In this document: positions 4,762 through 6,235 of the stretch, piece by piece
Position numbering within the stretch: position 1 is the first letter of the stretch
How the letters are laid out: each line of letters starts with the position of its first letter
Source: Flavobacteriaceae bacterium
GTDB taxonomy: Bacteria > Bacteroidota > Bacteroidia > Flavobacteriales > Flavobacteriaceae
Length of the DNA stretch: 6,383 bases
Assembly: GCA_030633285.1 (NCBI GenBank)
Contig: DAOVTC010000065.1
Coordinates: forward strand, 1-6,383
Direction: 5' to 3'
Position numbers and translations under genes: made by a program
Notes under the pieces: generated by a model
Told to the model about the DNA's origin: nothing
Seen by the model: the letters and a program-made list of their open reading frames with translations, nothing else
Database searches by the model: none

Positions 4762-5508
4762 ATGATAGGTATCATCAGTGCAATGCAAGAAGAAATACAA
4801 GCTTTGCATACATTTCTTAAAAATGAAAAAATCATAAATAAGGGTATGCGTACTTATTATCATGGTACTTTATTTAATCAAGAAATAGTTTTGGTGTTTT
4901 CTCGTTGGGGAAAGGTAGCTTCGGCAACTACAGTAACTCAGTTAATCAATGATTTTGATGTTGATGAAATTATTTTTACTGGTGTAGCAGGGTCAATTCA
5001 TGAAAATTTAAATATAGGAGATATAGTTATTGGTAAAAATTTGTTCCAACACGATATGAATGCTAGTCCGCTTATTGCTCCTTATGAAATTCCTTTATTG
5101 AATAAAAAATATTTTGAAACAGATTCTTTCAAACGAGATTTATTAAATAAAGCTTCTCAACTATTTTTATCTGATTTTGAAAGCTTCATACAAAAAAGTC
5201 AAGCTAAAGAATTTAGCATTACAAATTCTACAATTTTTTTAGGTGATATAGCTAGTGGTGATCAATTTATATCTAACAAACAACAAATCCAAAATATTAA
5301 AAATAATTTACCTAACGTAGTTTGTGTTGAAATGGAAGGTGCAGCTGTAGCACAAGTTTGTTACGAATATCAAATTCCTTTTAGTATAATTAGAACCATA
5401 TCAGATAAGGCAAATGATAATTCACATATAGATTTTTCAAAGTTTGCAAAACAAATTGCCAGTAATTATGCCTTAGGTATTTTAAAAAATTATTTCAAAT
5501 TGATTTAA
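4762..5508 (+). CDS. mtnN: 5'-methylthioadenosine/S-adenosylhomocysteine nucleosidase
   Basis: A cytoplasmic nucleosidase that hydrolyses 5'-methylthioadenosine and S-adenosylhomocysteine to adenine plus the thioribose compound, feeding methyl-cycle and methionine salvage. The 248-residue protein shows the family pattern: N-terminal GIISAMQEEI with E11 at the position of the E. coli catalytic Glu12; FTGVAGSI (72-79) and GDIVIG (86-91); QHDMNA (96-101); SGDQFI (165-170); VEMEGAA (189-195) with E192 matching E. coli Glu174, which contacts the ribose; and RTISDKAN (211-218) with D215 matching Asp197. It is somewhat longer than the roughly 230 residues usual for the bacterial enzyme, the extra length lying about residues 112-150. 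The spacer from lolD is 96 bases, so co-transcription is possible but not shown. The gene ends 26 bases before a structured repeat that may form its 3' end. Futalosine hydrolase is a related alternative but fits less well. Confidence 0.92.
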   Translation: MIGIISAMQEEIQALHTFLKNEKIINKGMRTYYHGTLFNQEIVLVFSRWGKVASATTVTQLINDFDVDEIIFTGVAGSIHENLNIGDIVIGKNLFQHDMNASPLIAPYEIPLLNKKYFETDSFKRDLLNKASQLFLSDFESFIQKSQAKEFSITNSTIFLGDIASGDQFISNKQQIQNIKNNLPNVVCVEMEGAAVAQVCYEYQIPFSIIRTISDKANDNSHIDFSKFAKQIASNYALGILKNYFKLI

Positions 5509-5534: not shown

Positions 5535-5669
5535 AAACACACCCCTATCCGATAAACGAATTTCTCCCCTCTCAAGAGGGGAAATCAACATCAATATTAT
5601 TATACACTATTTGATATATTTAACTATAAGTTCCCCTCTTGAGAGGGGTTAGGGGTGTGTTTATGTTAA
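5535..5669 (+). repeat. Structured REP/BIME-like repeat, upstream copy
   Basis: First of two direct copies of a structured non-coding unit. By hand alignment, 5538-5669 matches 6103-6235 at 127 of 134 columns, with 4 substitutions and 3 single-base gaps. A perfect 13-bp inverted repeat (AAACACACCCCTA, 5535-5547 and 5650-5662) bounds the unit. Just inside each end is a 16-nt hairpin: CCCCTCTCAAGAGGGG at 5566-5581 and its reverse complement at 5633-5648, so the two can fold singly or pair with each other. The left end also holds an extra segment of about 18 bases (5548-5565) between the terminal repeat and the hairpin. In the other copy this segment forms a perfect stem-loop; here it is damaged (ATCCG against CGAAT). 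The 51-base centre between the hairpins is AT-rich and non-coding. It may also act as a transcript end for mtnN. The structure is certain; function is unknown. Confidence 0.93.
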
Positions 5670-5726
5670 CTTCATAAATAAATTTAAACAAACCGATTAT
5701 AGAAATAAATACAGCATCATTAAAAA

Positions 5727-6113
5727 ATGAAAAAAAGAAGAATTATTCCATATAATCCCAAACTAAAAGAATTAGCTCGCCAACTTAGAAATAATTCTAC
5801 AAAATCAGAAATTTTCCTATGGCTTAAATTAAAAGGAAAACAAATCTATGGGTATGATTTTCATAGACAAAAACCAATTGATAATTATATACTTGACTTC
5901 TTTTGCTATGAGTTAATGCTAGGTATTGAAATAGATGGCTATTCACATGAAATACTTGAGGTATATGAGAAAGATAATATCAAAACAAAAAGAATGAATA
6001 AACTTGGAATATCAATTTTACGTTTTAGTGATATTCAAGTATTTAATGAAATGGATAATGTAATGAGGGCTATTGAGCATTTTATTATTGAATTTGAAAA
6101 TACACACCCCTAA
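5727..6113 (+). CDS. DUF559 (Vsr-like fold) predicted endonuclease
   Basis: A 128-residue soluble protein of the DUF559 family, which belongs to the restriction-endonuclease-like fold together with the very-short-patch repair nuclease Vsr. Visible family features are N-terminal IIPYNPKLKELARQLRNN (6-23), the conserved E28 and W32 of the first helix, FHRQKPI (45-51), the strand YILDFFC (54-60) with presumed catalytic D57, IEIDGYSH (67-74) with E68, D70 and H74, and the closing ILRFSD strand (97-102). It has the full length expected and no damage, so it may be active; no substrate is known for this type. The start is the ATG in an A-run, with PYNPKLKE following as in relatives. The final T-H-P codons and TAA come from the left end of the downstream repeat. 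A 64-base AT-rich leader separates it from the upstream repeat, and I see no clear promoter in it. A role in processing or moving the flanking repeats is my inference. Confidence 0.85.
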   Translation: MKKRRIIPYNPKLKELARQLRNNSTKSEIFLWLKLKGKQIYGYDFHRQKPIDNYILDFFCYELMLGIEIDGYSHEILEVYEKDNIKTKRMNKLGISILRFSDIQVFNEMDNVMRAIEHFIIEFENTHP

Positions 6114-6235
6114 TCCGATAAACGGATTTCTCCCCTCTCAAGAGGGGAAATCAACATCAATATTATTTACACTATTTGTAATATTTAACTATAAGTTCCC
6201 TTCTTGAGAGGGGTTTAGGGGTGTGTTTATGTTAA
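6102..6235 (+). repeat. Structured REP/BIME-like repeat, downstream copy
   Basis: Second copy of the unit, in the same orientation as the first. A perfect 12-bp terminal inverted repeat (ACACACCCCTAA at 6102-6113, complement at 6215-6226) bounds it. The left hairpin CCCCTCTCAAGAGGGG (6132-6147) is perfect; the right one (6198-6213) reads CCCTTC in its first arm, so one C-G pair becomes a T-G wobble in the folded strand. Between terminal repeat and left hairpin there is a perfect 6-bp stem-loop, AATCCG-ATAAA-CGGATT (6112-6128), which is degraded in the other copy. The left terminal repeat overlaps the last codons and the stop of the DUF559 gene. Similarity to the first copy continues a few bases past the right terminal repeat (TTATGTTAA). 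Confidence 0.93.

Follow-up and report, generated by a model that had tools for sequence, protein, structure and literature searches.

Intrastrand triplex motifs (TMs), also known as BoxC or PIT, have been reported from more than 260 genomes (PMC4666352, Holder et al. 2015). The E. coli BoxC sequence was reported to form a triplex in solution, and 23 TMs are counted in E. coli K-12. The surroundings of TMs vary between E. coli strains, the cause of this instability being called unclear there; that paper states that activities conferring mobility were never found around TM sites (PMC4666352), and no partner gene for them is known to us. In the system formed by repetitive extragenic palindromes (REPs) and REP-associated tyrosine transposases (RAYTs), each enzyme goes with its own repeat, and the repeats of some genomes are concentrated close to the gene (PMC2817692, Nunvar et al. 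2010). EDxHD homing endonucleases, such as I-Bth0305I, have an extra DNA-binding region beside the catalytic domain (PMC3943268). Caulobacter VsrA, which contains a DUF559 domain and is reported to cause an SOS response in cells without a cytosine methyltransferase, has been proposed as a mismatch-repair enzyme (PMC12907096). We analyzed a stretch of 6,383 nucleotides from a Flavobacteriaceae bacterium (contig DAOVTC010000065.1, assembly GCA_030633285.1; this whole stretch is hereafter the window) in which a gene of the DUF559 family lies between two copies of a repeat with the features of a TM. DUF559 genes and TMs are paired in several bacterial phyla, and the two together probably form a selfish element.

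The DUF559 gene and its repeat units

The open reading frame (ORF) at positions 5727-6113 of the forward strand is intact and encodes 128 amino acids that match PF04480 (DUF559) with 91.8 bits, against a cut-off of 20.6, in profile searches. DUF559, at residues 12-119, is the sole domain above the cut-off, and DUF559 and MTES_1575 are the only families matched. The best fold matches are a DUF559 crystal structure, the homing endonuclease I-Bth0305I and Vsr; the protein thus matches Vsr and its relatives, of the PD-(D/E)XK or Vsr fold, and its homology to the catalytic domain of I-Bth0305I is present in both profile and fold comparisons. Its likeness is to a homing endonuclease or to Vsr, and not to a transposase. 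Residues E28, W32, Q48, D57, E68, D70, H74, D83 and R99 are invariant or nearly so, and across 193 DUF559 domains the conservation of the active-site residues is 98% or higher (200 were fetched and 8 dropped for a stop or fewer than 95 residues; a few duplicates were kept). Several protist mitochondrial ribosomal proteins also match the DUF559 fold (model me1ba360b8ba4).

Two repeat units lie in direct orientation on the forward strand, one of 124 bp upstream of the gene (5537-5660) and one of 125 bp downstream (6102-6226), identical in 119 of 126 aligned columns (94%). They end in ACACACCCC and GGGGTGTGT, with 9-bp terminal inverted repeats, and the downstream unit provides the last codons of DUF559 and its stop (6111-6113). 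Hairpins of the type CCCCTCT(CA/TG)AGAGGGG are present in each unit, the last of them mismatched in one arm, and single-strand folding of both units was better than that of 200 out of 200 dinucleotide shuffles (z -8.8 and -10.4). The original prediction had described an intact Vsr-fold DUF559 gene between two direct copies of a unit with terminal inverted repeats and GC-rich hairpins. All of this was confirmed, except that the unit length of about 133 bp given there is slightly too long by the exact ends.

The unit ends are composed of a hairpin, a short spacer and a G-rich foot that mirrors the purine arm, G falling on G and T on A. As read from its letters, the window repeat has the three-part grammar of the BoxC/PIT motif. 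In the upstream unit, the motif towards the gene (5633-5660, forward strand; match of our triplex-grammar scanner at 5633-5659) comprises the hairpin CCCCTCTTGAGAGGGG, the spacer TTA and the mirror strand GGGGTGTGT. On the reverse strand, the left hairpin CCCCTCTCAAGAGGGG (5566-5581) and its foot (5537-5545) are separated by a loop with a short degenerate hairpin (5547-5561). The left end of the downstream unit (6102-6147, reverse strand) consists of a foot directed towards the gene (6102-6110), a loop hairpin AATCCGATAAACGGATT (6112-6128) and a hairpin at 6132-6147, while its right motif (6198-6226, forward strand), with one arm mismatch and a 4-nt spacer, was missed by the scanner. By eye, the loop hairpin reads AATCCG..CGGATT in the window and AATCTGC..GCAGATT at locus L001 (2855-2872), a change on both arms that fits a kept hairpin. 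The genome of L001, the best relative, matches the upstream unit once at full length (87%) and partially four times elsewhere, and one further match overlaps the full-length one on the opposite strand. No part of the window reached the gathering threshold of any Rfam family.

The third-strand rule of TMs (G on G, and either A or T on A) holds in the window and for the repeats that the scanner detected in the four locus samples described below. In a pairing test of 590 distinct hairpins, which is diluted by non-TM hairpins, at least 6 of 7 positions matched the hairpin's own arm in 12.7% of cases and a swapped arm in 3.3%; the third-strand base opposite an A of the arm was A in 92 cases, G in 71, T in 64 and C in 12. 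The repeat had originally been called REP-like. It is indeed palindromic, but it follows the triplex grammar and is not a REP of the GTAG type. We dropped the strict REP reading because copies of the exact motif are few: 1-13 per genome in 8 genomes, 19 of the total of 41 lying within 1 kb of a DUF559 match. A local burst is seen in the Flavobacteriaceae genome G083, with 148 exact copies of the window-type motif and four DUF559 matches.

Association of DUF559 with triplex motifs

We compared four samples of DUF559 loci: 80 relatives of the window gene, the best of 320 (74 with 300 bp on either side); 60 matches chosen non-randomly from those listed for Flavobacteriaceae, 20 with long frames and 40 with short ones (59 with full flanks); 30 loci from Bacteroidota at large (27 with full flanks, reduced to 24 by removing three duplicates of the Flavobacteriaceae sample); and 30 loci from a second phylum, presumed to be Nitrospirota (27 with full flanks). 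Among 78 of the best relatives lying off contig edges, the window-type motif faces the gene on both sides in 49, on one side in 23 and on neither in 6. In the window itself the feet at 5652-5660 and 6102-6110 both point to the gene, as they do in most of the best relatives. None of 100 size-matched control ORFs is flanked on both sides and 6 are on one, so that DUF559 genes are bracketed far more often than other ORFs of their loci, as anticipated. The same holds for 477 control ORFs of any size (none on both sides, 39 on one). Within 721 kb, 183 out of 228 matches of the window-type motif lie no more than 300 bp from DUF559.

The scanner detected TMs on both sides in 48 of 74 best relatives (none at 8) and in 15 of the 59 Flavobacteriaceae loci; for other Bacteroidota the count was 19 of 24, and for the second phylum 25 of 27 (none at one). 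Shuffled flanks returned a single match over all sets and five rounds, and never on both sides. When 638 control ORFs were scanned, including those adjoining DUF559, 9 had TMs on both sides and 161 on one; for 79 size-matched ORFs away from DUF559 the counts were none and 3, respectively. In records of a plasmid collection with DUF559, TMs lie on both sides in 2 of 8. By comparison of flanks, hairpin repeats of the TM kind occur on both sides of DUF559 genes of Deinococcus, Pseudanabaena, Picosynechococcus and Neisseria, and downstream only of E. coli ycjD and a Photobacterium gene; no significant repeat was detected between the flanks of Sinorhizobium and Pseudomonas genes. On a Deinococcus psychrotolerans plasmid (L121), DUF559 has 71-nt inverted ends (93% identical) and lies between paaD and paaZ. 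At L032 and L064 the inverted repeats around DUF559 reach, by eye, past the hairpins into locus-specific sequence, and at L064 a 28-bp exact direct repeat lies outside them. Viral contigs yielded no relative, and phage records two distant matches.

TM similarity goes with DUF559 relatedness, a point that the original prediction had proposed to test, and this is visible across phyla. For 28 second-phylum loci, the TM distance to the nearest DUF559 among 118 Bacteroidota loci is 0.148, compared with an expected 0.262 (sd 0.024), and none of 5,000 permutations was as low. Within groups, TM and DUF559 are correlated at 0.39 and 0.46 (0 of 2,000 and 0 of 500 permutations as high), values partly fed by shared descent. 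DUF559 occurs in 119 of the 249 Flavobacteriaceae genomes surveyed and in 109 of the 198 from Bacteroidota. In Flavobacteriaceae it is present in 19 of the 20 genomes with the window-type motif and in 100 of the 229 others (P-value 5 x 10-6, uncorrected for ancestry). Among 99 second-phylum genomes, a generic TM is found in 26 of 38 with DUF559 and in 17 of 61 without (P-value 1.4 x 10-4, likewise uncorrected), with 977 and 164 copies, respectively. One of these genomes, G511, holds 13 DUF559 matches and 255 generic TM copies.

The window-type motif is thus concentrated in genomes with DUF559, but TM-rich genomes without detected DUF559 exist, and TMs can therefore occur in such genomes. These, and the 23 TMs of E. 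coli K-12, would be expected if TMs spread otherwise, through slippage during replication or the action of an unknown enzyme, with DUF559 genes as passengers caught between them. We regard this as quite improbable, given that TM and DUF559 are linked across phyla, that control ORFs are almost never bracketed and that two of the four samples show an orientation of the feet relative to the gene. In addition, none of the other genes recurs as a constant neighbour across the 80 closest loci, on which ground transposase hitchhiking was also rejected.

Site occupancy and copies inside host genes

The window element occupies the gap 3' of a gene for a PNP_UDP_1 family nucleosidase (4762-5508, forward strand), presumably mtnN; the other genes upstream of DUF559 encode an ABC ATPase and a DUF5916 protein (all by profile search). 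Of 22 genomes from the same genus, 15 have a full nucleosidase match, a partial sixteenth being excluded. The unit and DUF559 are found 3' of the nucleosidase in 2 of these 15, and 13 have neither DUF559 nor a TM there. Occupancy also differs in Lutibacter, where MetH is matched in 36 of 38 genomes. Among 30 MetH loci fetched, 20 have an 11-residue linker; in 9 others, part of that linker gives way to DUF559 with TM-derived ends, for a length of 144-167 residues, and one more locus (L157) also has the insert. For ycjD, in the E. coli sapF-fabI region (L126-L129), 80% or more of the query is covered in 3,362 of 5,426 E. coli genomes. A clean empty site was sought there and rejected: three strains without ycjD have efflux-transporter genes beside sapF, which indicates replacement. 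Solitary TM units occur away from DUF559, one of them in frame, and at L100 a motif pair about 140 bp apart encloses a DUF559 remnant (35% identity over residues 12-59, E 6 x 10-4).

Profile searches identified DUF559 in frame inside LeuS, MetH, IleS, RecG, HsdR, HsdM and further restriction-modification proteins, and fused at the protein end to HisD, HemD, a GATase_5 protein that we take to be PurL, and a threonine-dehydratase relative. Since these loci were picked for long frames, they give no frequency. At one LeuS locus (L185:2033-5785), a repeat-only unit directly follows the DUF559 insert and a second lies about 1.5 kb further on, all in frame; the two are 85% identical over 123 nt. In a FastTree phylogeny of 201 domains, where long-frame loci without a named host (for example L238, L266 and L280) were counted as intergenic, the nearest relative lies in the same host gene for RecG (3 of 3), HemD (6 of 6), LeuS (5 of 6) and MetH (12 of 13). 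One MetH gene (L177, genome G264) has two in-frame DUF559 insertions, each the nearest relative of the other, and this suggests a jump within the gene. Inheritance or homing to the same site probably explains most in-frame copies, and jumps would be occasional.

The copies inside genes bear on two other explanations. The GC-rich hairpins adjoin the ORF, as would suit two-way transcription terminators or insulators for the nuclease gene. We give this almost no credence, because the same motifs occur inside open reading frames and in solitary copies away from DUF559, a terminator has no use for a third mirrored strand, and E. coli PIT elements were reported to be without termination activity (PMC4666352). 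It is also very improbable that DUF559 is a Vsr-like repair nuclease kept beside TMs to resolve folded DNA or mismatches there. Its Vsr fold and the SOS response and repair role attributed to VsrA would agree with such a function, but a trans-acting enzyme needs neither bracketing by its substrate nor in-frame insertion in LeuS, MetH and RecG.

A probable selfish element and its described counterparts

On balance we think it probable that the two units and the gene between them are a copy of a small selfish element, a nuclease joined to its own repeats, which spreads through breakage and repair and leaves solitary TMs behind. The DUF559 nuclease would contact and cut DNA either at a TM folded on exposed single-stranded DNA or at a target free of the element; the element would then be copied in by recombinational repair, as in homing, and so spread. 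The TMs would be the element ends and the probable nuclease substrate, and internal deletions would reduce the element to a solitary pair of TMs or to a single one, of which BoxC would be an example. If this is true, a mobile element can live in essential genes, such as that for leucyl-tRNA synthetase, perhaps without splicing, and would be tolerated there because its ends are translated into short stop-free linkers. A wider proposal is that DUF559 and TMs form a bacteria-wide class of selfish elements, which are neither transposons nor introns nor inteins, with a single-domain Vsr-fold nuclease, its own triplex ends as substrate, and insertion both between genes and, in frame and unspliced, within essential genes; their deletion derivatives would make up the orphan BoxC/PIT/TM family known from E. 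coli, Neisseria, cyanobacteria and other organisms. This we advance tentatively, leaning slightly towards doubt.

Several observations weigh against the selfish element. The original prediction stands up only partly to two of its own tests: TM-rich genomes without detected DUF559 exist, and 29 of the 59 Flavobacteriaceae loci have no scanner TM, though many of these have other repeats on both sides. In the samples from Flavobacteriaceae and Bacteroidota the feet point both ways, those of in-frame copies being directed outward. Taken over all loci, rank correlation between the phyla is weak (0.10; 115 of 2,000 permutations as high), in a set with L168, the same place as L076, in both groups and some non-Bacteroidota loci among the Bacteroidota, from which the nearest-DUF559 test is free. 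Of the 61 second-phylum genomes without a DUF559 match, 17 carry a generic TM, most strikingly G515 with 61 copies, in assemblies that may be incomplete. In Bacteroidota the generic pattern is rare, and its presence in 10 of 109 genomes with DUF559 and 2 of 89 without is not significant (P-value 0.07, uncorrected for ancestry). No consistent target-site duplication was noticed, no systematic test for duplications having been made. Finally, in-frame copies mostly cluster by host gene, so that many were perhaps inherited and not freshly moved.

This last point is also expected under the main rival, plain homing, in which the nuclease recognises host insertion sites and the TMs are passive ends acting as stop-free linkers or terminators. 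Outside DUF559, a homing endonuclease is the closest characterised relative by fold, and several conserved genes serve as targets. We nevertheless consider passive ends unlikely: TM ends recur in the 80 closest loci although the neighbour genes vary, TMs resemble those of the nearest DUF559 across phyla, and solitary TM units occur, one of them in frame.

With the selfish element, the long-known orphan family BoxC/PIT/TM gains a likely partner enzyme, and the cause of instability at these repeats becomes directly testable with a candidate nuclease. DUF559, a common 'domain of unknown function', would acquire a role if the proposal is true. Our literature search (titles and abstracts of CC-licensed PMC papers) returned no link of DUF559 or YcjD to TM repeats.

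The window repeat shares with BoxC/PIT/TM the pyrimidine arm, loop, purine arm, short spacer and third strand mirroring the purine arm, and, as reported for TMs, the element occurs in many bacteria and varies among strains (PMC4666352). It differs in that the window motif, CCCCTCTTGAGAGGGGTTAGGGGTGTGT, does not meet the E. coli BoxC consensus CCCTCNCCCN3-6GGGNGAGGGN3GGGNGAGGG. With miniature inverted-repeat transposable elements, which have terminal inverted repeats and a target-site duplication, the locus may be compared by its ends: the window has its 9-bp terminal inverted repeats and L064 its 28-bp outer direct repeat. Rickettsia palindromic elements are palindromic repeats lying in frame in protein genes, and are not known to contain a nuclease gene. 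Vsr and VsrA are alike to the window protein in fold, and VsrA in its DUF559 domain; for Vsr no tie to repeats at its flanks is known to us, no search having been aimed at Vsr itself.

The original prediction likened the locus to a REP/RAYT partnership with a nuclease in place of the Y1 enzyme. Flanking and co-variation agree with it, while the type of repeat and the homing- or Vsr-like enzyme do not. As in the REP/BIME-RAYT arrangement described (PMC2817692), the gene lies between two palindromic repeats in inverted orientation. The RAYT, however, is an IS200/IS605-type Y1 transposase, whereas the window ORF is a Vsr-fold nuclease homologue; the REP has a GT(A/G)G head, whereas the window has the foot GGGGTGTGT with a TTA spacer and a third mirrored strand. 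Among EDxHD homing endonucleases, I-Bth0305I is the closest characterised relative after another DUF559 protein, in both profile and fold, and relatives of the window gene likewise sit in conserved genes. In contrast to these enzymes, the window protein is a single small domain without the extra DNA-binding region, and its element has palindromic ends of its own, with no intron or intein seen. A tested feature of each system is lacking here, and the locus combines a layout like that of REP/RAYT with an enzyme like a homing endonuclease.
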